36,165 bases of DNA, from contig NZ_MDSS02000037.1 of assembly GCF_001758425.2 (NCBI RefSeq), positions 1 to 36,165 on the forward strand. The letters run 5' to 3'. Shown here piece by piece: positions 16,191-26,048 of the stretch. The position numbers and the translations under genes were made by a program. This DNA comes from Nesterenkonia sp. PF2B19. GTDB lineage: Bacteria > Actinomycetota > Actinomycetes > Actinomycetales > Micrococcaceae. The notes beneath the pieces are model-generated. The model searched no databases. It worked only from the letters and a program-made list of their open reading frames with translations, and was not told the origin of the DNA. Each line of letters starts with the position of its first letter. Position 1 is the stretch's first letter.

Positions 16191-19112
16191 TCACTCGGCC
16201 CGCCGGGCCAACAGCTCGGCCAGATGGATGGCCTCGACGTCGGCAAGGTCGTCGAGCTGGATGCGGCAGGACATGCCGTCGGCCAGGACGACGGTCTCCC
16301 CGGCGGAGGCGCCGTCGTCGGGGAACGCGTCGCGGACCGCAGGCAGCACATGCGTCTCGGCCACCGCCACGCTGACCTCGTAGTGGCCGGCCTCCACGCC
16401 GAAGTTGCCGGCCAGGCCGCAGCAGCCGGGCACCGCAGTCACCTGGGCGCCGGCCTGCTCCAGCAGCGCCTGATCCGCCCGCCACCCGATGACGGCGCGC
16501 TGGTGGCAGTGCGGCTGCGCCACGACCCGCACACCGCTGAGGTCCGGCAGCTGGATCCGGCCCTCGTCCACGAGCCGATGCACCAGCTCCGCGAAGGTCA
16601 GCACCCCGTCCGCCACGGTCCGGGCCTCGGGCCGATGGGAGAGCTGCACCAGGTCGCTGCGCAGTGTGGCCGTGCAGGAGGGCTCCAGTCCGATCACCGG
16701 CACGCCGGACTCCACCGGGTCCAGCAGCGCATCCACGGCCTCGTCCACCAACCGACGGGCCTGGTCCAGCTGGCCGGTGGTGATCCACGGCAGCCCGCAG
16801 CAGCCCTTGCGCTGCAGCACCTGCACCTCCAGGCCCTGGGACCGCAGGAACTCCAGGGCCGCGAGGCCGGACTGCGGGAAGAAATGGTCCGTGAAGGAGT
16901 CCGCCCACACCCAGACGTCCGGGGCGGAGCGAGATCCGCCTCCCTGCTCCCGCCGAGCGGCGGCCCGGCGCAGCGTCTGATGCGCGAAGGCCGGGACGTC
17001 CCGACGCCGGTCGATGCCGGCGGTCCACTTCGCCACGGCCGCCAGAGGCGGGACCTTCATCATCGCGTTGACCAGCGGCGCCACCGGGGAGGCCAGTCGT
17101 GCCCAGAACGGCATCCGCCCCAGGATGTAATGGGAGCGCGGACGCAGCCGCCGACGTCGCCCGGAGCCGTCGGGGCGGGCCGTCCCCCCGACGTCGTAGG
17201 TCTGGTACAGCGCCTCGGACTTATAGGCGGCCATGTCCACCCCGGCCGGGCAGTCCGAGGCGCATCCCTTGCAGGACAGGCACAGATCGAGGGCCTCATG
17301 CACGGCCGGGTCCGCGAGCCCGTGCACCAGACTGCCGTCCAGGGCCTCCTGGAGGATGCGGCCTCGCCCCCGGGTGGAGTCCTTCTCCTCCTTGGTCGCC
17401 AGATAGGAGGGGCACATGACCGACGGCGTCGTCGGCGCCACGCACTTCCCGACCCCCGAGCAGCGGTGCACGGCCGCGCCGAAGTCACCCGCGTCGTGAG
17501 TGTGCCGCATCCCCGGCCAGGGCAGCTCCCGGGTGGCCTGGGTGGGTCGCAGGTCCTCGGTGTGCGGGGCGGGATCGGTGATGATCCCGGGGTTCAGCAG
17601 GTTCTCCGGGTCGCAGATCCGCTTGGCGCGGGCGAACAGGTCCAGGGAGGTCTGGTCATACATGTACGGCAGCAGCTCGGAACGCACCCGGCCGTCGCCG
17701 TGCTCCCCGGACAGCGAGCCCCCATAGGCGGCCAGACGTTCCGCGCAGGTACGCATGAACTCCGCGAACACTCTCGTGCTGCCGGGGTCCCCGTGGGTGA
17801 AGGGGAAGTCGATCCGGCAGTGGATGCAGCCGTCCCCGAAATGCCCGTACGGGTAGCCCTGCAGGCCGAAGTCGACCATGAGCTCCTCGAACTCGCGCAT
17901 CCAGGCACCCAGATGCTCGGGCGGAACGGCGGCGTCCTCCCAACCGGAGTGCGCGGGGGTGTCCAGACTGATCCCGGCCAACCCGGCGCCGTCCTCCCGG
18001 ATGCGCCACAGGGCGGCGGCCTGGACGGCGTCGTCGATCAGGGCGGAGTCCACGCAGCCGGAGGCCGCCCGGACGGTGGCGATGACGTCGTCGGCGTCGT
18101 CCCCGGCAGCCTCCACGAACAGCCAGCTCTGGCCCTCCGGCAGGGGCGGCACCTGTCTTCCGGCCCCACGGACCAGCGCCACCAGCCGGGAGTCCATGCC
18201 TTCGCAGGCGATGAGTCGGCCCGGCGCCGCGGCGAGCAGCTGCGGCACGGCGTCGGCGGCCTCGGCCACCGAGTGGTAGCCCAGCACGATGAGCAGCCGG
18301 TGCGGATGGTCGGCCACCAGGTTCACGGTGGCCTCCAGGACCGTGCCCAGCGTGCCCTCGGTGCCGACCAGGAAGCGGTCGATGCGCCCGCGGTTCTCCG
18401 GCAGCAGGTGCTCCAGCGAGTAGCCGCTGACCTGCCGGTCGAAACGGCCGAAGTGGGTGCGCACATGGCCCAGGTCCGTCTCCACCAGGCGCAGCAGCTG
18501 CTCCGCGGTGGAGCCAGACGAGGCGAGGCCGGCGCCGAAGGTGCCGACCTCCCCGTTGCCGAACAGCACGGTGGCGGCCTCCACGTTGTCCGCGGTGCGC
18601 CCGTAGCCCAGCGCCCGGGAGCCGCAGGCGTTGTTGCCGATCATCCCGCCGATCGTGCACCGCGTGTGGGTGGAGGGGTCGGGGCCGAAGCGCAGCCCGT
18701 GGCCGGCGGCGGCCGCTGCAGCCGGGCGTGCACCACTCCGGGCTCCACCCGGGCGGTGCGGTGGCCTCCGGGTCGATCTCCAGGATGCGGTCCAGGTCCC
18801 GGGTGTCGACGACGAGGCCGGGGCCCACGGCGTTGCCGGCGATCGAGGTGCCGGCACCGCGCAGGGTGACCGGCACCCCCGTGGCCCGGGAGACCTCCTG
18901 GACGGCGTGGAGCTCGTCCACATGCTGGGGCCGGGCCACCACCTGGGGCACCACCCGGTAGAGGCTGGCGTCGGAGGAGTACATGCCGCGGGCCAGGGCG
19001 GAGTCGTCGACCCGACTGACGCCGGCGCGTCGCAGGCGCGGGCGGCGACCTCGGCGCCGGCGGAGGCGTCTCCCGCCCGGGCTTCGGCGTCGGATGGCAC
19101 AGTCGAGGTCAC
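16191..19112 (-). CDS. FAD-linked, Fe-S-containing D-2-hydroxyacid oxidase (three frameshifts)
   Basis: A fused FAD_binding_4 oxidase and Fe-S protein of the GlcD/YdiJ/D-lactate dehydrogenase type. The FAD part has VTLRGAGTSIAGNAVGPG and TIGGMIGNNACGSRA; the oxidase C-domain has SGEHGDGR. Next come two ferredoxin-like clusters (GKC...CP and CLSCKGCASDCPAG), then two CCG modules (KGCCGLPW and GCCGLAGNFG). It should oxidise a D-2-hydroxyacid and pass electrons to the membrane chain. The start is GTG at 19112 after AAAGGAGA. Single bases are missing near 19035, 18763 and 18714, each in a G or C run. Because there are three, the outer frame stays open, but residues about 29-133 of the unrepaired reading are wrong. 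Repaired length is 974. It is the last gene of a four-gene operon. Confidence 0.9.
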   Translation of the reverse strand: MTSTVPSDAEARAGDASAGAEVAARACDAPASVGSTTPPWPAACTPPTPASTGWCPRWWPGPSMWTSSTPSRRSPGPRGCRSPCAVPAPRSPATPWAPASSSTPGTWTASWRSTRRPPHRPGGARSGARPAAAAAAGHGLRFGPDPSTHTRCTIGGMIGNNACGSRALGYGRTADNVEAATVLFGNGEVGTFGAGLASSGSTAEQLLRLVETDLGHVRTHFGRFDRQVSGYSLEHLLPENRGRIDRFLVGTEGTLGTVLEATVNLVADHPHRLLIVLGYHSVAEAADAVPQLLAAAPGRLIACEGMDSRLVALVRGAGRQVPPLPEGQSWLFVEAAGDDADDVIATVRAASGCVDSALIDDAVQAAALWRIREDGAGLAGISLDTPAHSGWEDAAVPPEHLGAWMREFEELMVDFGLQGYPYGHFGDGCIHCRIDFPFTHGDPGSTRVFAEFMRTCAERLAAYGGSLSGEHGDGRVRSELLPYMYDQTSLDLFARAKRICDPENLLNPGIITDPAPHTEDLRPTQATRELPWPGMRHTHDAGDFGAAVHRCSGVGKCVAPTTPSVMCPSYLATKEEKDSTRGRGRILQEALDGSLVHGLADPAVHEALDLCLSCKGCASDCPAGVDMAAYKSEALYQTYDVGGTARPDGSGRRRRLRPRSHYILGRMPFWARLASPVAPLVNAMMKVPPLAAVAKWTAGIDRRRDVPAFAHQTLRRAAARREQGGGSRSAPDVWVWADSFTDHFFPQSGLAALEFLRSQGLEVQVLQRKGCCGLPWITTGQLDQARRLVDEAVDALLDPVESGVPVIGLEPSCTATLRSDLVQLSHRPEARTVADGVLTFAELVHRLVDEGRIQLPDLSGVRVVAQPHCHQRAVIGWRADQALLEQAGAQVTAVPGCCGLAGNFGVEAGHYEVSVAVAETHVLPAVRDAFPDDGASAGETVVLADGMSCRIQLDDLADVEAIHLAELLARRAE

Positions 19113-19176
19113 GTCGTCGTCTCCTTTCGCCGCGCGGGTCCGAACCTACCGGACCGCGGGCCGCTCGGCGGCTGGA

Positions 19177-19683
19177 TCAGTCCTCCCCGGCACGGGCGAA
19201 GGCCAGAAACTCGCCGCGGGCCCCGTCCATCCAGATCGACTGGCAGGCCTCGGCCATCACGTCCAGCCCGTCCACCACGGTGGCGAACACGTTGCCCGGC
19301 ACCCACCCCTGGTCCCCGTTGATGAGCAGGTTGTTCCGCCCATAGAACAGGGCGAGGTCGATGAGCTCCGGGCGATCCCGCACTCCGGCGGAGGCCTCGT
19401 AGCCGTAGCCGGGGTTGCCGAGGTCGTCAGCGTCGAAGTGGAACCAGCACACGTCCCCGGGGATGGGAGTGACGGTGGTGTTCTCCTTGCCCGGGTCCTG
19501 CGCGGAGAAGACCGGCAGCAGGGCGTAGATCTCGTTGCGGGCGTACTTGCCGTGGTAGACCTGTCCGTCCAGCGGGAGCGCCTCCCACACCGCCGCACAG
19601 GTGCGGGGCGCGACGTCGTCGAGCAGGCGGGCCGTGCAGCTCACGCCCCGGGTGGTCAGAGTCAGGCTGATGTAGCGGGCCAT
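19177..19683 (-). CDS. DUF3830 family cyclophilin-like protein
   Basis: A 168-residue protein with the DUF3830 pattern: GVSCTARLLDDVAPRTCAAV, VYHGKYARNEIYALLPVF, PGDVCWFHFD and FYGRNNLLINGDQGWVPGNV. The family has a cyclophilin-like barrel and no assigned activity; to my knowledge its members often sit beside amidases, hydantoinases or Asp/Glu racemases, as here. AAGGAGG is well placed before the ATG at 19683. It lies 42 bases after the amidase and 64 bases before the FAD/Fe-S oxidase, so it is the third gene of the operon. It may bind or process the same small substrate, but that is only inference. Confidence 0.85.
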   Translation of the reverse strand: MARYISLTLTTRGVSCTARLLDDVAPRTCAAVWEALPLDGQVYHGKYARNEIYALLPVFSAQDPGKENTTVTPIPGDVCWFHFDADDLGNPGYGYEASAGVRDRPELIDLALFYGRNNLLINGDQGWVPGNVFATVVDGLDVMAEACQSIWMDGARGEFLAFARAGED

Positions 19684-19725
19684 GGTGCTCCTCGCCTCCT
19701 TCTGCGGCTCGTACCGGTCCTCGTC

Positions 19726-21160
19726 TCAGGCTCCCAGAACTGCGGGCTCCACCGGACGGACGAACCGCTCCCCGGAGGCCTTCTCATAGGCCCGGGCGGC
19801 ACGCAGTACCAGGCGGTCCTGGGTGCGGGCCCCGACGATCTGCAGCCCCACCGGCAGGCCGTCGGCGGCCACTCCGCAGGGCACCGACGCCGCCGGCTGC
19901 TGGGTCATGTTGAACGGATAGGTGTAGGGGGTCCAGGAGGTCCACAGATCAGAGGGCCACCCGTCAGGCGCCTGACGGGTCTTGTCGAAGGCCGTGATCG
20001 GCATCGTCGGGGTGACCAGCAGGTCATAGCGCTCGTGGAAGGTCCCCATGCGCACGCCCAGATCCATCCGGGTCGCCGTGGCACCCAGATAGTCCAGGGC
20101 GCTGGCGTCGCCGTACTGCTCGATGCCGGCACGCAGGCCCGGGTCCACATGGTCCACCGCACCGGGCCCGAAGGCCTCCAGCACCTTGGCGGCCCCGGTG
20201 AACCAGAGGATGTGGAAGTCCTCCACCGGGTCCTCAAAGCCGGGATCGACCTCCTCCACCACTGCGCCGGCACCCTCGAGCACCCCGACGGCCTCGGTGA
20301 CCAGCCGTTCCACCTCTGGGTCGTTCTCCCCGAACCCGAGGGTCCGGGAGTAGGCGATGCGCAGTCCGGCGACCCCGTCCTCGAGTCCGTCGAGGTACGA
20401 GCCGACAGGGCTGGGGAGCGCCGCCCAGTCGCGGGCGTCGAAGCCGGCGATGATGTCCATCAGCAGCGCCGCGTCGGTGACGGTGCGCGTCATCGGACCG
20501 GCATGGGCCAGCGTCCCGAAGGGCGAGGCCGGGTACATCGGCACCTGCCCATAGGTGCCCTTCAGCGCGACCGTCCCCGTGAACGAGGCCGGGTATGCGC
20601 ACCGACCCGCCGGCATCGGTGCCCACCGCCCAGGGGGCCATGCCGGCGCCGACGGCCGCCGAGGCACCTCGGAGGAGGCCGCCCGCCGTGGTGGACGGGT
20701 CCCACGGGTTGCCGGTGGCGCCGCAGCGGATGCTGTCCGTGGTGCCCTTCCAGGCGAACTCCGGGGTGGTCGTCTTCCCGACCAGCACCGCGCCGACCTC
20801 TCGGAGCCGCGCCACGCAGGGAGCGTCCACGTCCCACGGGCCGTCCTCCCCGATGAGCGTGGAGCCCTTGAACGTCGGCCACCCGCGGGTGAGGAACATG
20901 TCCTTGATGGAGGTCGGCACGCCGTCGCCGGGGCCGAGCGTCTCGCCGGTCTGCCAGCGGCGCGCGGAGGCCTCCGCGGAGGCCCGGGCGGACTCGGGGT
21001 CCACAAGCACGAAGGCGTTGAGGGCGTCGTCGTGCCGGGCGATCTGCTCCAGCACCGCCTCCGTGGCGTCCACCGGGGTGAACTCCCCGGCCCGGTAGCC
21101 TGCGATGAGCTCGGCGGCGGTGAGCTCCGCGAGGCTGCGCGTGGTCCGAGTCTCCGTCAT
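19726..21160 (-). CDS. Amidase signature family amidase (indels, one over the active site)
   Basis: An amidase of the Lys-cisSer-Ser class that hydrolyses an amide to a carboxylate and ammonia. The catalytic lysine is K86 (PTSIKDMF) and the nucleophile S186 (GTDAGGSVRIP). The GGSSGG loop reads GGLLRG at 160-165, because one C is inserted and one G lost close together near 20671-20681; undoing both gives GGSSGG, with cis-Ser 162 exactly 24 residues before S186 as in known members. One further extra base at about 20594 switches frame inside VRIPASFTGT. The repaired protein has 477 residues. The start at 21160 has AGGAGGTCACC. It is the second gene of the operon, 58 bases after the hydroxyacid dehydrogenase. 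Confidence 0.92.
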
Positions 21161-21218
21161 GGTGACCTCCTGTGTGCCGGTGGTGGGCGACGTCGTGTCC
21201 GGGCGGCCCCGGGCCGTG

Positions 21219-22211
21219 TCAGGACTGGGGGCGGGGCACGTACCCCTTGTGCTTGTCGACGACGTTGTGCAGCTCCTCGCCGTCGAGCCAGCGGCGCGCG
21301 TTGTCCAGGAACTGCTCAGCGAGCGCGTCGCGCCAGCCGATGACGTCTCCGGACATGTGGGCGGAGATCAGCACGTCCTCGCGGTCCCACAGCGGCGAGT
21401 CCTGGGGCAGCGGCTCCTGGTCGAAGACGTCGAGGGTGGCGAACCCGAGGGGCCCGTCCTCCAGGGCGTCCACCAGGGCTGCCTCGTCCAGGGTCTCTCC
21501 ACGGCCGATGTTGATCAGATGGGCTCCCTCGGCGGCGGCGGCGAGGACCTCGGCGTCCAGCAGACCAGTGGTCTGCGGGGTCAGCGGGGCGGCGTTGACG
21601 ACGATGTCGGCCGCGCCGATGTGGGCGGCGAGGTCGTCGCTGGCGACCACGGTGCCGAAGTCGGGGTCCTGCTCGCGTGCCGTGCGTCCTGCGGCGAAGA
21701 CCTCGACGTCGACGGCGCGCAGCAGGGCGGCGATCTCCCGGCCGATGGCGCCGGTGCCGATGACCAGGGCGGTGAGCCCTCCGACGCGCTGGGTCTCGCG
21801 ATGCTCCCAGGTCCTGCGCTGCTGACGGCGCAGACTGCCGGGCATGTCCTTGGCGCGGGCCAGCACCGCGCCGAGCACGTACTCGGCGATGGGCCGGTCG
21901 AAGATCCCCTGGGCGTTGGTGACGACGACGTCCGAGTCCGCCAGCTCGTCGAACATCAGCTTGTCCACGCCGGCGGCGGCCACGTGGATCCAGTCCAGGG
22001 AGTCGGCGGCGTGCCAGGCCTCAGAGACGGCGCGTGAGAAGAAGTCCCACAGGAAGAGCGCGTCGGCCCCGGGCAGGGCATCGGCGAGATCGGCGGCGGT
22101 GGCGGTGCGGATCTCCGCCCGGTCCTGCAGCTCATCCAGGCCCGGGGGCACGGCGTGCGGGACGTCGTCGTCGGGACACAGGACGGTGATGACCGGCAGG
22201 GACTCCGCCAT
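21219..22211 (-). CDS. D-2-hydroxyacid dehydrogenase (NAD(P)-dependent)
   Basis: A 330-residue member of the D-isomer 2-hydroxyacid dehydrogenase family. The nucleotide loop is VIGTGAIG (150-157), and the catalytic triad is R237 (NIGRGE), E266 (FDQEPLP) and H285 (ISAHMSGD). It interconverts a 2-oxoacid and a D-2-hydroxyacid in the cytoplasm; the substrate is not predictable. GAGGTGACGG precedes the ATG at 22211. It is the first gene of a reverse operon with the amidase, DUF3830 and FAD/Fe-S oxidase genes. The cluster thus holds both a soluble dehydrogenase and a respiratory oxidase for hydroxyacids, which suggests such an acid is an intermediate. Confidence 0.92.
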   Translation of the reverse strand: MAESLPVITVLCPDDDVPHAVPPGLDELQDRAEIRTATAADLADALPGADALFLWDFFSRAVSEAWHAADSLDWIHVAAAGVDKLMFDELADSDVVVTNAQGIFDRPIAEYVLGAVLARAKDMPGSLRRQQRRTWEHRETQRVGGLTALVIGTGAIGREIAALLRAVDVEVFAAGRTAREQDPDFGTVVASDDLAAHIGAADIVVNAAPLTPQTTGLLDAEVLAAAAEGAHLINIGRGETLDEAALVDALEDGPLGFATLDVFDQEPLPQDSPLWDREDVLISAHMSGDVIGWRDALAEQFLDNARRWLDGEELHNVVDKHKGYVPRPQS

Positions 22212-22387
22212 CCGTCACCTCGCTTCCTCCAGCGGCGTGCTGAGCATGCTCCGCGGGTCCGTGATCCTGCGATCCGGCACCTGCGCTCAGATGGTCGTGC
22301 GGCCCGCCGGGAAGCCGTCTGACGTGGACCTCCGGATGGCCGCAGGGGACTCTCCCCGGGGTCTTCCCGGGGCGGGGCCCGTGCCGC

Positions 22388-22424
22388 TATGCTAGGGAGA
22401 CCTCACGAAGATTGTCAACAATCT
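22388..22424 (+). promoter_or_regulatory. Promoter and GntR-type operator of the racemase operon
   Basis: TATGCT (22388-22393) is a good -10 box. Sixteen bases on, AGATTGT-CA-ACAATCT (22409-22424) is a perfect inverted repeat covering the early transcribed region. Its core ATTGT-NN-ACAAT recurs before the GntR gene at 24345-24356. The site lies in the 251-base gap between the two divergent operons and could control both. Confidence 0.75.
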
Positions 22425-22462
22425 TGTAGGAGCTGATCGCACCGTCTCAGATTGGAGCGGCC

Positions 22463-23401
22463 ATGGCGCTCACCCCCTCCTCCGGACGCGTCCGGACGAC
22501 TCTCCCCGATCACCCCGAACCTCCCGCAGACCCGGCCGCAGTCCCCTCGGATCTGAGCTCGGACCTCCCCCTGGCCGGCGCTCCCGGAATCGCGCCGGGA
22601 CTCGTCCCGGAGGGCCACCCGCAGCCCGAGGACGCAGGATCGGGCCGGCAGATGCCGGCGGTCGGCGTCGTCGTCCCCTATGACATGGCCCTGGACCGCG
22701 AGCTGCGAGCCTTCACCCATGATGAGCGGGGCGCCGAACAGCTGGACCTGCTGTTCACCCGCACCCGGCATGAGTCGCTGGCCGTCACGGTCAAGCAGGC
22801 GCGGGCGATCTCCCGCCCGAAGGCCATCGCCGAATGCGTCCGGGCGGTCTCCGCCGTGGTCCCCTCCGGCTATGTCTACGCCTGCACCTCCGGCAGCTTC
22901 GTCCGGGGCCTCTCGGGTGAGCGCACCCTGCTGCGCGCCATGGCCGCCGCCGGCGGAGCCCCCAGCTTCACCACCTCAGGCGCCCTGCTGGCCGCGGTGC
23001 GCGCCTTGGGCGCCCGCACCATCGCCGCGGCCACCCCGTACGACGACGCCATCACCGCCCAGTTCGCCGCATTCTTCGCCGAAGCGGGGGTCCACCTCAT
23101 GAGCAGCTCCAATCTGGGGCTGAACGGCCGCATCTGGGAGGTCCCCGCCGAACGGACCTACCAGCTGGTGCGGCAGGCGGGCTCGGACCAGGCGGACGCC
23201 GTCGTGGTGTCCTGCACGAACCTGCCCACCGCCTCGGTGCTGGACCAGCTGGAGCAGGATCTGGGAAAGCCGGTGATCTCGGCGAACCAGGCCACCATCT
23301 GGACCGTGCTGCGGCACTTCGGACTGCCGTATCGCGGCCCGGGCCACGCGCTGGCCTCACTGGAACCTGCTCCCCCGAGCCTGACGAAGGAGGCGCCATG
23401 A
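22463..23401 (+). CDS. Maleate isomerase / Asp-Glu racemase family protein, two-cysteine form
   Basis: A 312-residue member of the Asp/Glu/hydantoin racemase superfamily, closest in pattern to maleate cis-trans isomerase. Both active-site cysteines are present: C141 in VYACTSGSF and C251 in VVSCTNLPT. It should isomerise or racemise a dicarboxylate such as maleate. Residues 1-60 form a Pro/Ala-rich extension not typical of the family; a later start may be used, but the ATG at 22463 has GGAG six bases upstream. The stop overlaps the start of the next paralogue (ATGA). It is first in the forward operon with its own operator. Confidence 0.88.
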   Translation: MALTPSSGRVRTTLPDHPEPPADPAAVPSDLSSDLPLAGAPGIAPGLVPEGHPQPEDAGSGRQMPAVGVVVPYDMALDRELRAFTHDERGAEQLDLLFTRTRHESLAVTVKQARAISRPKAIAECVRAVSAVVPSGYVYACTSGSFVRGLSGERTLLRAMAAAGGAPSFTTSGALLAAVRALGARTIAAATPYDDAITAQFAAFFAEAGVHLMSSSNLGLNGRIWEVPAERTYQLVRQAGSDQADAVVVSCTNLPTASVLDQLEQDLGKPVISANQATIWTVLRHFGLPYRGPGHALASLEPAPPSLTKEAP

Positions 23402-24327
23402 GCGACCACCTGCTGGAGACCCACGCGATCACCGACGTCGACGAGTTCGTCGACACGCGACAGCAGATACCGATCCCAGGCCGCCCCGAGAACCCGACGG
23501 TGGGGATCCTATATCCGGGCCATGCCGCGGAGGACGACTATCCGGCCTTCGAGGAGGCCTGCGGCGGAGCGGTCCGGCTCCCGGTGACCCACACCACCAT
23601 CGGGGTGGATGAGCACACCACCCAGGCCCTGCTGGACACCGGGTCGCCCGCCCGGCTCGCCGAGGGGGCCCAGCGCCTGCTGGCCGAGCATCCCGTGGAG
23701 GCCCTCATGTGGGCCTGCACCTCGGGCAGCTTCGTCTACGGGTTCGACGGCACCCACGACCAGACCCGGACGCTGGAGCAGGCCGCGGGGGTGCCGACGT
23801 CGTCGACCTCGCTGGCCTACCTGCACGCTCTGCAGACCCTGGGAGTGCGCCGGGTCGCCGTGGCGGCGTCCTATCCTGCCGACCTGGCCGAGCACTTCCA
23901 GGACCTCCTGGGGCGCGCGGGCGTCGACGTCGTCGCCTTCGCCTCCCACGGGATCTTCACCGCCGCCGAGGTGGGCCTGATGGGCAGGGAGGACGTGGTG
24001 GCGATGATCCGCGCCGTCGATGTGCCGCAGGCCGAGGCGATGCTGGTGCCGGACACCGCCATGCACTCGCTGCGGTGGATCCCGGACCTCGAGGAGTCGC
24101 TCGGCAAGCCCGTGCTGACCGCCAACCAGGTCACCGTCTGGGAGGGCCTGCGGCTCACCGGACGGCCGATGCCGGTCCTGCCGCAGCTGGGCTGCTTGGG
24201 CGACCCGAACGTCTTGGGCGACCCGAACGCCCTGAGCGTCCCGGACCGACCGGCCGCACCCGGAGGGGGCGGGGCCGACGTCAGCGCCGAATCCTGGGGC
24301 GACGCCGTCGACTGGCCCGAGGACTGA
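23398..24327 (+). CDS. Maleate isomerase / Asp-Glu racemase paralogue, second cysteine replaced
   Basis: A 309-residue paralogue of the preceding protein. The first cysteine is kept (C107 in MWACTSGSF), but the position of the second reads LVPDTAMHS, with Asp219 where the neighbour has C251. Two-base acid/base chemistry needs both cysteines, so this protein probably catalyses a different reaction, binds substrate, or partners its neighbour in a heterodimer. GGAGG precedes the start, which overlaps the upstream stop by four bases. A short in-frame repeat (LGDPNVLGDPNALS) lies near the C-terminus, followed by a low-complexity tail. Confidence 0.87.
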   Translation: MSDHLLETHAITDVDEFVDTRQQIPIPGRPENPTVGILYPGHAAEDDYPAFEEACGGAVRLPVTHTTIGVDEHTTQALLDTGSPARLAEGAQRLLAEHPVEALMWACTSGSFVYGFDGTHDQTRTLEQAAGVPTSSTSLAYLHALQTLGVRRVAVAASYPADLAEHFQDLLGRAGVDVVAFASHGIFTAAEVGLMGREDVVAMIRAVDVPQAEAMLVPDTAMHSLRWIPDLEESLGKPVLTANQVTVWEGLRLTGRPMPVLPQLGCLGDPNVLGDPNALSVPDRPAAPGGGGADVSAESWGDAVDWPED

Positions 24328-24337
24328 GGCCCGGCGG

Positions 24338-24356
24338 TATCATCATTGTCGACAAT
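24338..24356 (+). promoter_or_regulatory. Promoter and GntR operator before the GntR gene
   Basis: TATCAT (24338-24343) is a probable -10 box, directly followed by the palindrome ATTGT-CG-ACAAT (24345-24356), the same core as at 22411-22422. Binding here would cover the start of transcription and autoregulate the regulator. Confidence 0.7.
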
Positions 24357-24438
24357 CCACGGATCCTGTGATCCCCCTCTCACCACACTGGTCTCACCGC
24401 ACCGCGCACCATCCGACCCTCACCCCGCTGGAGCCACG

Positions 24439-25146
24439 ATGCCCGCCACCGCAGCCCGATCCGCCGGCCGATTCACCCCCGTGAACAAGGAGTCCACGGC
24501 GTCGCTGATCACCCGGCAGCTGCGGGAAGGCATCATGGACGGCTCCCTGCCCGCCGGCAGCCAGCTCTCCGAGGCTCGACTCTCGGCGGCCTTCGGGGTC
24601 AGCCGCGGCCCCCTGCGTGAGGCCATGCAGCGCCTCGTGCAGGAGGGCCTGCTGCGCGCGGAGCCGAATCGCGGACTCTTCGTCAAGGAGCTCGACGCCG
24701 AGGAGATCCGCGATCTCTACGTGGCGCGCACCGCCGTGGAATCGGCGGCGGCGCTGAAGATCGTGCGTGACGCCGCCACGGAGACGACGCCCCGCGCCGT
24801 CGCCCTGCTGCGCGCGACCTGCACCGCGATGCGTCGGGCGGCGACCGCCGGGGACCTCAGTGCCCTCTCGGATGCGGACTTCGACTTCCATGAGGAGCTG
24901 GTCACCGCCTCCGGCAGCGCTCGGCTGCGCCGGATGCACGAGACGCTCATGGTGGAGACCCGGATGTGCCTCACCGCCCTGGAGGGGACCTACTACGATC
25001 CCGAGGACCAGGTGGACGAGCACCGCCGCATCGCCGACGCGATCGCCGACGGCGACGAGGCCGCCGTCCTCCGCGCGATCGACGATCACATGCATCAGGC
25101 CCTCGAGCGCCTCATCCGCGGCGGCGAGGCCGACACACGAGGCTGA
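24439..25146 (+). CDS. GntR family regulator, FCD (FadR) subfamily
   Basis: A 235-residue regulator. The N-terminal winged helix covers LREGIMDGSLPAGSQLSEAR, LSAAFGVSRGPLREAMQRLV and QEGLLRAEPNRGLFVKEL. The C-terminal FCD helical bundle has DFDFHEELVTASG and DEHRRIADAIADGDEAA with later HMHQAL, giving the Asp/His pattern that binds a metal and carboxylate effectors in this subfamily. The ATG at 24439 has GGAG nearby. It follows the racemase genes and is preceded by the palindrome ATTGT-NN-ACAAT, repeated before the racemase operon. It is therefore the likely local repressor, relieved by a pathway acid. It converges with the ABC permease, with three bases between stop codons. Confidence 0.92.
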   Translation: MPATAARSAGRFTPVNKESTASLITRQLREGIMDGSLPAGSQLSEARLSAAFGVSRGPLREAMQRLVQEGLLRAEPNRGLFVKELDAEEIRDLYVARTAVESAAALKIVRDAATETTPRAVALLRATCTAMRRAATAGDLSALSDADFDFHEELVTASGSARLRRMHETLMVETRMCLTALEGTYYDPEDQVDEHRRIADAIADGDEAAVLRAIDDHMHQALERLIRGGEADTRG

Positions 25147-25149
25147 GCC

Positions 25150-26048
25150 TCAGCGGCTGAGGTTCTTGAACTGCCGGACCGCCAGCGGCAGGAAGATCAG
25201 CATGATCACCGCCGGCCAGATCACGGCACCGGCCACGGCATGGCCGTCGATCCAGTAGGCGGGCTCCAGATGCTGCATCCCCGGGGTCTCGAAGAGCTCG
25301 CGGATGGCGGCCGCCGTCGAGGACACCGGGTTCCAGGCCGCGATGGCCCCGAGCCAGCCGGGCATCATCTCCGGCGGGGCGAACACCGAGGAGATGAACC
25401 CCAGAGGGAAGGCCACGGCGAACAGCATGCCCGCGGTCTCCGTGTTCCGGATGCACAGCCCCAGGTAGATGCCGACGAAGATCAGTGCGAGGCGCAGCCA
25501 CAGCAGCAGCGCGAACGCCAGCAGCGTGGCCCCGAGCTGCCGCCGGCGCGCCACCCGATCAGCAGGGCGACCCCGACGATGACGGCCAGGTCGATCGCCG
25601 CGCGGATCACATCCGAGACCGCCCGCCCGGTGACGGGTGCCGAGGAGGCCATGGGCATGGACCGGAAGCGGTCCATGAACCCCTTCTCCTTGTTGTGGGT
25701 GACCGCATAGGCGGTGTCCATGAAGCCGAAGGCCATGGTCATGGCGAACATCCCTGGCATGGCGAAGTCCACATACCCCTCCCCCGCGCCCTGCCCGGTC
25801 ACGTCCATGGCGGAACCGAAGACGTAGACGAACATCAGCACCATCACCACCGGGAAGCCGATCTGCCAGGCGAAGGTGCTGGGCTGGCGCACCAGGTGGG
25901 TGAACTCCTGCAGGACGATCGTCCAGCAGTCACGGGCCGCCCAGAGCAGCCCGGCGCCGGGCTGGGCCGTCGGGGCCGTCGCGGAGCCGAGGGAGTGTCT
26001 GCCAGTGCGTCCGTTGCGGCGGCCGTCGTGGTGAGTCGTCGTCGTCAT
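25150..26048 (-). CDS. ABC-2 type exporter permease, DrrB-like (frameshifted)
   Basis: An ABC-2 membrane component. The first part has [20 protein letters not shown] and [20 protein letters not shown], the DrrB-type cytoplasmic loop. The second has [20 protein letters not shown] and [20 protein letters not shown] near the last membrane helix. About six hydrophobic segments are present over the two parts. The frame breaks near 25536, where restoring one C gives [13 protein letters not shown] and a protein of 299 residues. Unrepaired, translation ends at 25482. The start overlaps the stop of the ATPase gene by four bases (ATGA). Confidence 0.9.

Follow-up and report, generated by a model that had tools for sequence, protein, structure and literature searches.

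A candidate core of an ectoine or 5-hydroxyectoine catabolic regulon in Nesterenkonia sp. PF2B19

Results

The stretch of DNA analysed here (the window) comprises the 36,165 nucleotides of contig NZ_MDSS02000037.1 from the actinobacterium Nesterenkonia sp. PF2B19, and our subject is an island of seven genes at positions 16191 to 25146. The reverse-strand operon begins with an NAD-dependent D-2-hydroxyacid dehydrogenase (DHDH; 21219..22211; PF02826 and PF00389), whose best match in the Protein Data Bank (PDB) is phenylpyruvate reductase 8HPG (E=4.5e-45). It is followed by an amidase-signature hydrolase (PRK06169-like; 19726..21160; PF01425 in both of its pieces), a 168-aa long-form DUF3830 protein with a cyclophilin-like fold (19177..19683), and an FAD-linked oxidase/4Fe-4S/CCG protein (FadFeS oxidase; 16191..19011, start about 19011), a fusion of the GlcD-GlpC/YdiJ-like D-2-hydroxyacid dehydrogenase kind with Pfam domains FAD_binding_4, FAD-oxidase_C, Fer4_8 and CCG. 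The forward operon encodes two EutA-like paralogues of the EutA/Amdase superfamily, Rac1 (22463..23401; PF17645, 100.2 bits) and Rac2 (23398..24327; PF17645, 77.1 bits), and a GntR-family regulator with an FCD domain (24439..25146; PF00392 and PF07729). For the regulator, the ATG at 24439, with a GGAG beginning nine bases earlier as read from the sequence, is most likely the start, in preference to the listed TTG at 24346, which overlaps a predicted operator. The initial annotation had placed seven genes in two divergent operons; open reading frames and profile scans find all seven in the order claimed, with a single GntR/FCD gene and two copies of a palindrome.

That palindrome, GATTGTNNACAATC, occurs twice in the window at up to two mismatches, against 0.19 matches expected, and two or more matches were found in 1 of 100 shuffles of the window. 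The first copy (22410-22423) has no mismatch and lies within the extended form AAGATTGTCAACAATCTT; as a predicted operator, AAGATTGTcaACAATCTT, it occupies 22408..22425 in the divergent promoter region. The second predicted operator, CATTGTCGACAATC (24344..24357), lies between rac2 and gntR and has one mismatch. The regulator fits the GntR/FCD class, with an N-terminal GntR domain, a C-terminal FCD domain and an inverted repeat, the predicted operator, ahead of its own gene. The initial annotation had proposed that both operons share one regulator and one operator core. Both proposals stand, as the common palindrome is present twice in the window and is kept in relatives, and both operons appear to belong to a single regulon with one GntR protein in control.

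Relatives were drawn at the level of order (198 genomes), phylum (396) and family (120). PF12903, the DUF3830 family, is patchy, occurring in 15/198, 43/396 and 20/120 genomes, respectively, and its members fall into two score forms, a long form of about 160-227 bits and a short form of about 40-114 bits; one further match, in genome G620, scored 20.5 bits and is below the cut-off. We fetched 49 stretches of 9.6-19.9 kb, 44 of the long form and five of the short (L029, L090-L093). A further 79 loci are named relatives from the best 80 matches listed, a set that leans to close relatives. There are thus 124 long-form loci including the window, or 120 distinct loci once four duplicates between the named and unnamed sets are removed; the short-form stretches and one long-form genome (G398), in which the DUF3830 gene lies on a separate contig, were left out of the counts, although G398 was included in the genome-wide family searches. 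Each label rests on one query and a tblastn score of 80 bits or more, and one DoeA label (in L083) is only 29% identical. Since 16 of the 79 named loci and 3 of the 45 others are under 17 kb, and cuts at contig ends are common, absences are upper bounds.

Across the 120 distinct loci the set travels together, which disposes of the possibility, raised in the initial annotation, that the genes are not conserved as a neighbourhood. Rac1 was found in 112, the amidase in 104, Rac2 in 99 and both Rac proteins in 97, followed by DHDH (89), GntR (70) and the FadFeS oxidase (28). The recurring partners from outside the window are the aminotransferase AT3 (49), the aldehyde dehydrogenase SSADH (44), AT1 (37), an M20 hydrolase (35), a homologue of the ectoine hydrolase DoeA (38) and all four genes of an EhuABCD-type importer (19); 50 loci have either DoeA or the full importer. 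EhuA itself was labelled in 29, some of which are other ABC ATPases, and EhuB, EhuC and EhuD in 19 each. A BCCT-like transporter, its family named by eye, is present in nine and YjgF in eight. Other recurring families, the largest in 10 loci, look by eye like opposite-strand reading frames or general neighbours. Plasmids hold little of this: the DUF3830 protein gave one weak Rhizobium match (29%), and a megablast of the whole island hit four records, covering no more than 5% of the query. In Mycolicibacter sp. MYC340 (L174), the DUF3830-amidase-DHDH-Rac1-Rac2 core is present in two tandem copies.

The predicted operator follows these genes. The core motif TTGTNNACAA occurs in 151 of 189 divergent gaps of labelled genes (36.0 kb) versus 2 of 142 control gaps between unlabelled genes (37.7 kb); with duplicates removed the figures are 146/183 and 2/138, and because the loci are related these counts are not independent. 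By gap, the motif is present in 61/69 between DHDH and Rac1 (the window is one of them), 21/24 between AT3 and SSADH, 13/13 between AT3 and DHDH and 11/12 between the amidase and Rac2, and in only 2/7 between the amidase and Rac1. A longer pattern, allowing at most one mismatch, gave 245 sites in 2.36 Mb of loci, and its reversal gave none. A site was assigned the labels found up to 450 bp to its left or right, with one between two genes counting for both, and 220 of the 245 are upstream of labelled genes. At the same stringency, sites lie 88-121 bp ahead of the aligned start of EhuB at 9 loci (20 EhuB labels in all) and 24-125 bp ahead of that of DoeA at 12 (40 DoeA labels); these are 8 and 11 distinct loci, as L017 and L167 are one contig of Arthrobacter sp. 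SPG23. None of these sites is inside a labelled gene.

The 3.7-Mb Nesterenkonia genome itself has the palindrome at three places, the two in the window and one on contig C39. The C39 site is a perfect palindrome between genes for an AT3 aminotransferase and an SSADH aldehyde dehydrogenase, both of which share 65% identity with their cluster counterparts in relatives. This site mirrors in trans the AT3/SSADH gap of the relatives and, read as an operator, is the strongest single support for a regulon that reaches Atf/Ssd-type steps. Together with the 21/24 AT3/SSADH gaps it indicates that Atf- and Ssd-like genes share the predicted operator, at which we infer binding by GntR.

Operator-like palindromes of another kind of placement were seen in Kribbella. 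Loci L127, L146, L147 and L156 have several inside called genes; in the three loci examined (L127, L147, L156) the sites without an assigned gene are all within called genes bar one in L127, and no explanation offered here covers them.

Several lines of comparison link the recurring partners to ectoine. First, the Arthrobacter sp. SPG23 locus (L017) flanks the core with EhuB (264.5 bits, cut-off 190.9), EhuA (374 bits, cut-off 345.4), a DoeA-type M24 protein (414 bits, cut-off 613), an M20 hydrolase, a class I/II aminotransferase-fold protein and a class III aminotransferase. The M24 protein scores 350 bits with the ectoine hydrolase 6TWK versus 81.5 for the best PDB chain that is not DoeA, and by this comparison is specifically DoeA-like. 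Matches above the same importer cut-offs were found in Streptomyces (L187; EhuB 244.7, EhuA 347.7), for EhuB in Leucobacter (L178; 279.5) and Glaciibacter (L148; 258.4), and for EhuA in Nonomuraea (L121; 369.6) and the distant locus L088 (364.4).

Second, the parts match those of an annotated Rhizobium ehu-eut-doe cluster, with identities of 56% for EhuA, 40% for EhuB, 48% for EhuC, 47% for EhuD, 44% for DoeA, 47% for Ssd and 31-33% for Atf. The EutA of this cluster is 35% identical to Rac1 (over 153 aa) and 31% to Rac2. Its EutB, EutC and DoeB drew no match from any regulon query at E 1e-6; the queries without a match to the annotated DoeB include M20, the amidase and the other cluster proteins, and no DoeB-specific genome search was made.

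Third, EhuB exceeds its cut-off in 11 of the 18 long-form DUF3830 genomes of the phylum draw versus 20 of the 378 others (Fisher p = 2e-9, with kinship ignored and the Nesterenkonia genome counted among the 378); the remaining 7 of the 18 have no EhuB over the cut-off. The Nesterenkonia genome has EhuA (354.3 bits) and EhuD (215.4, cut-off 205.2) above the NCBIfam cut-offs. Its best match to the DoeA model TIGR02993 is 74.2 bits, against a cut-off of 613.

EutB and EutC are a different matter. Neither model (TIGR02992, TIGR02991) was exceeded at its cut-off in any of the 46 genomes with a long-form core. EutC matches above E 1e-40 occur in four of the 46. With TIGR02991 the Nesterenkonia genome reaches 246.7 bits at best, against a cut-off of 413.35. 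Sub-cut-off EutB matches, present in 42, are presumably threonine dehydratases.

The two Rac proteins had been described as maleate isomerase paralogues, a name that holds only at the level of the superfamily. Among NCBIfam models, EutA fits both best (TIGR02990; 101 bits for Rac1 and 105.6 for Rac2, cut-off 318), and many of the listed plasmid relatives of Rac2 are annotated EutA at about 27-31% identity. Two catalytic cysteines define the maleate isomerase family. Rac1 has both (C141 and C251, counted from the ATG), the first kept in 117 of 117 copies and the second in 116. Rac2 has C107 and D219: its first cysteine is kept in 100 of 104 copies, with serine in four, and in a joint alignment the column of the second Rac1 cysteine holds aspartate in 103 of 104 Rac2 copies and a gap in one. 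The cysteine pair is thus present in Rac1, and its second member is missing from Rac2.

The DUF3830 protein matches PF12903 with 221.6 bits against a cut-off of 26, over all of the profile (1-143 of 143), and its best PDB match is 3KOP (E=1.6e-92), a cyclophilin-like protein of the same family from Arthrobacter sp. FB24 that was deposited as uncharacterised. A structure model (pLDDT 85.5, pTM 0.83) gave 3KOP as the best Foldseek hit (65% identity, TMq 0.87). The next hits are the Pictet-Spenglerases KslB (best E 2.8e-8) and McbB (5.3e-8), at TMq 0.57-0.65, and also TM1367. The family of KslB, McbB and cucumopine synthase provides the nearest enzyme folds outside DUF3830. KslB and McbB are longer proteins with 17-20% identity, and sequence comparison shows no significant relation to cucumopine synthase (E 0.2-0.37). 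Among 37 DUF3830 sequences, all close relatives 61-75% identical to that of the window, 47 columns are invariant, including H44, K46, R49, N50, E51, D77, Y114, R116, N117, N118 and D124. This strong conservation suggests that the DUF3830 protein is an enzyme. No paper naming DUF3830 or 3KOP was found among the 5.39 million searched, in keeping with the initial statement that the family has no assigned activity.

Discussion

The island is probably the core of a GntR/FCD-controlled regulon, widespread among actinobacteria, for the catabolism of the salt-stress protectants ectoine, 5-hydroxyectoine or both, or of a very close derivative. This substrate is proposed because the recurring partners that bear the predicted operator are an ectoine importer, a DoeA homologue and Atf/Ssd-type enzymes. 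On the best reading, the two EutA-like proteins, the DUF3830 protein, the amidase and the hydroxyacid oxidoreductases would stand in for EutB and EutC, and in many species for DoeA as well. Our literature search, which mostly did not extend to subscription papers, found no description of the gene set, in agreement with the initial remark that no described pathway has exactly this composition.

A course of events can be sketched, although we place little confidence in the order of its steps. GntR would act at GATTGTNNACAATC to keep the regulon repressed, until relieved by an intermediate of the pathway. Uptake of the solute would be by an EhuABCD-type importer, which is encoded in the genome but lacks this operator there. 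The Rac1/Rac2 pair may set the stereochemistry at the ring or at the ring-opened acid. DoeA would open the ring where it is present, and where it is absent the DUF3830 protein could open or rearrange the cyclic amidine or its product, possibly with C-N cleavage; this role is drawn from the nearest enzyme folds in the structural comparison, which act on amine-carbonyl ring chemistry. The amidase, or the M20 hydrolase, may then remove the acetyl group to give (hydroxy)diaminobutyrate, which gamma-transamination by AT3 and aldehyde oxidation by SSADH could convert to (3-hydroxy)aspartate. Finally, DHDH and the FAD/Fe-S oxidase might dispose of the hydroxylated branch by oxidising hydroxyacids.

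The closest known systems are the ehuABCD-eutABCDE/doeABCD clusters of Pseudomonadota (S. meliloti, R. pomeroyi, H. elongata). These share with the regulon an EhuABCD-type importer, an EutA-like protein, Atf and Ssd, and share a DoeA/EutD homologue with part of the window's relatives. The known route runs through DoeA, DoeB, Atf and Ssd, with open questions, according to the accessible parts of PMC5924519, PMC8739950 and PMC13188858. EutABC are described as needed for hydroxyectoine use, their precise activities unknown (PMC8739950, in the portion consulted), and known ectoine clusters are said to carry a hydroxyacid dehydrogenase gene of undefined role (PMC5924519, in part). The island differs in having two EutA-like paralogues, one with aspartate for the second cysteine, and in the long-form DUF3830 protein, amidase and DHDH as frequent partners, whereas EutB and EutC do not exceed their cut-offs and DoeA is often absent. 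In the relatives, an M20 hydrolase takes the place of the DoeB annotated in the Rhizobium cluster. The repressor EnuR of the Pseudomonadota clusters also belongs to the GntR superfamily (the available text of PMC5924519), yet EnuR is of the MocR/GabR type and the island regulator is an FCD-type GntR with GATTGTNNACAATC; no search of the genome for EnuR was made.

Putative Gram-positive EutD/EutB clusters have also been proposed for ectoine catabolism, in Bacillota and Actinomycetota (PMC13188858, 2026, partial text), and those of Bacillota include an amidohydrolase gene, abgB (same extract). As described in the sections available, that survey is anchored on EutD and EutB, so window-like clusters, which have neither, fall outside it by design. 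Its main text contains neither 'amidase' nor 'racemase'. The Arthrobacter papers PMC3534580 and PMC9608346, in the parts available, mention ectoine as a solute or its uptake and do not treat its catabolism.

Several observations weigh against an ectoine regulon. The substrate is proposed from association, and we infer the individual steps. The EhuABCD models might also respond to an amino-acid importer of a related kind, and the EutA-model scores of Rac1 and Rac2 are far under the cut-off. DoeA exceeded its cut-off of 613 in none of the 46 long-form genomes, the maximum being 419 bits. In 70 of the 120 loci neither DoeA nor a full Ehu set is present in the stretch seen. In the order draw, a DoeA homologue of 383-419 bits occurs in 15 genomes (with nine more at 178-211) and a long DUF3830 gene in 14; 11 of the 15 have no DUF3830 and 10 of the 14 no DoeA. 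Only four genomes have both, so the two modules are separable, and on the same count (core and strong DoeA together in only 4/198) DoeA was rejected as a constant partner. The operator evidence has its own gaps. The core motif is absent from all eight DUF/EhuB gaps, 25 of the 245 sites have no assigned gene, and 11 of the 20 EhuB and 28 of the 40 DoeA labels have no site directly ahead, although some lie further down an operon. Within the Nesterenkonia genome, the reversed-pattern control gave two matches per strand versus three for the palindrome, so the third site counts chiefly for its place between AT3 and SSADH. The EhuABCD operon of this strain has no palindrome within one mismatch and was dropped as a member of the operator regulon; its EhuB is in pieces that score 119.4 and 32.9 bits, below the cut-off of 190.9.

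Other explanations of the island have to be considered. First, the core may serve the 5-hydroxyectoine branch only, with the racemase-like pair, DUF3830 and DHDH in place of EutABC, and with DoeA or an unrecognised hydrolase elsewhere opening the ring. EutB and EutC fall short of their cut-offs throughout the core genomes while EutA-like proteins are duplicated, and in 20 of the 79 named loci (from the best 80 matches listed) DoeA adjoins Rac1, with which it shares a strand, and diverges from DHDH, as this explanation would have it. Most core genomes nonetheless have no DoeA: homologues of 389-419 bits occur in 9 of the 46 and one of 173 bits in genome G292, and none of the four f21 genomes (taken for Streptomyces), in which EhuABCD adjoins the core, has a DoeA at E 1e-40. 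We regard a restriction to the hydroxylated branch as possible, though less likely than not.

Second, the regulon could degrade some other small nitrogenous solute, perhaps a betaine-like compound or another cyclic amide or amidine, taken up by an Ehu-like importer. Transporter family names do not prove a substrate, the DoeA and EutA scores are below cut-off, and the BCCT-like transporter of nine loci would suit such a solute. We regard this as unlikely in view of the part-by-part match to the annotated Rhizobium ectoine cluster, which extends to DoeA, Ssd, Atf and EhuABCD, and of the operator common to the upstream regions of EhuB and DoeA.

Third, the island could be a decaying pseudogene cluster in this strain. 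The gene calls of the initial annotation stand, but it did not mention that two of the genes are frame-broken. The amidase changes frame near 20576-20607, and the oxidase does so near 18689-18763. A relative of the oxidase (L160:10921-13512) aligns in frame -2 over 18689-16197 and another (L019:4501-7527) in frame -1 over 19011-18763. Amidase homologues run uninterrupted in one frame in L018 and L116; the two pieces in the window score 414 and 275.1 bits with PRK06169, whose curated cut-off of 506 is for the whole protein. Other genes of the same assembly look indel-broken too: an ABC-2 permease in the window (25150-26048) consists of two reading frames, EhuB on contig C91 (L114) of two separate matches, and the 5' end of a class III aminotransferase on C39 (L209) is affected likewise. 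Damage of the same kind in several genes suggests that the assembly is indel-prone, and makes its indels seem a likelier cause than decay of the island. DUF3830, DHDH, Rac1, Rac2 and GntR are open along their full length, and decay of the island appears very unlikely.

Finally, the conversion of an amide to a dicarboxylate with maleate isomerisation, for which maleamate, hydantoins and N-carbamoyl acids had at first been suggested as substrates, is highly improbable: membership in the racemase superfamily, the amidase and PDB matches that include maleate isomerases would fit a maleamate/nicotinate-type or a hydantoin/N-carbamoyl-amino-acid pathway, but Rac2 has replaced its second cysteine, the labelled recurring partners point to ectoine or 5-hydroxyectoine instead, and both pathways were set aside on those neighbours and the regulon, with no search aimed at nicotinate or hydantoin genes.

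An ectoine regulon of this kind also allows a bolder proposal, of which we are rather doubtful: that actinobacteria have a (hydroxy)ectoine route independent of EutD/DoeA and EutBC, in which long-form DUF3830, together with Rac1/Rac2, carries out ring opening or C-N cleavage. If true, this would be the first assigned activity for DUF3830 among the literature found by our search, and would explain ectoine use in genomes scored negative by EutD-anchored surveys. The conserved set itself suggests that many actinobacteria escape counts of ectoine degraders based on EutD. The conserved set, the defined operator, the EutA-like paralogues and the DUF3830 structure make the questions of EutABC and DUF3830 function testable.

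The short form of DUF3830 has other company. Four short-form genes (L029:3675-4088, L091:9865-10302, L093:9853-10269 and L090:9933-10343) lie among ureide and purine catabolism genes. Those of L091 include allantoinase, allantoate amidohydrolase, urease alpha and a sub-cut-off hydroxypyruvate isomerase; L093 has hydroxyisourate hydrolase, allantoate amidohydrolase, tartronate-semialdehyde reductase and again a sub-cut-off hydroxypyruvate isomerase; L029 has glyoxylate carboligase, a carbamoyltransferase and an amino-acid-kinase-family gene. From the five short-form stretches, this form is a candidate for a ureidoglycolate-type step.

Two observations come from outside the genome draws. Haloferax volcanii was the sole one of 14 control genomes to match both the DUF3830 and the DoeA family (E<=1e-40). 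On a plasmid of Sinorhizobium sp. CCBAU 05631 (L211; 526402-547058), a stretch with no annotated DoeA or EutBC and with transposases nearby carries Ehu genes, a diaminobutyrate aminotransferase, an aldehyde dehydrogenase, an amidohydrolase, an EutA-like protein and an NAD(P)-dependent oxidoreductase; by its annotated genes, it shows a similar composition in another phylum.

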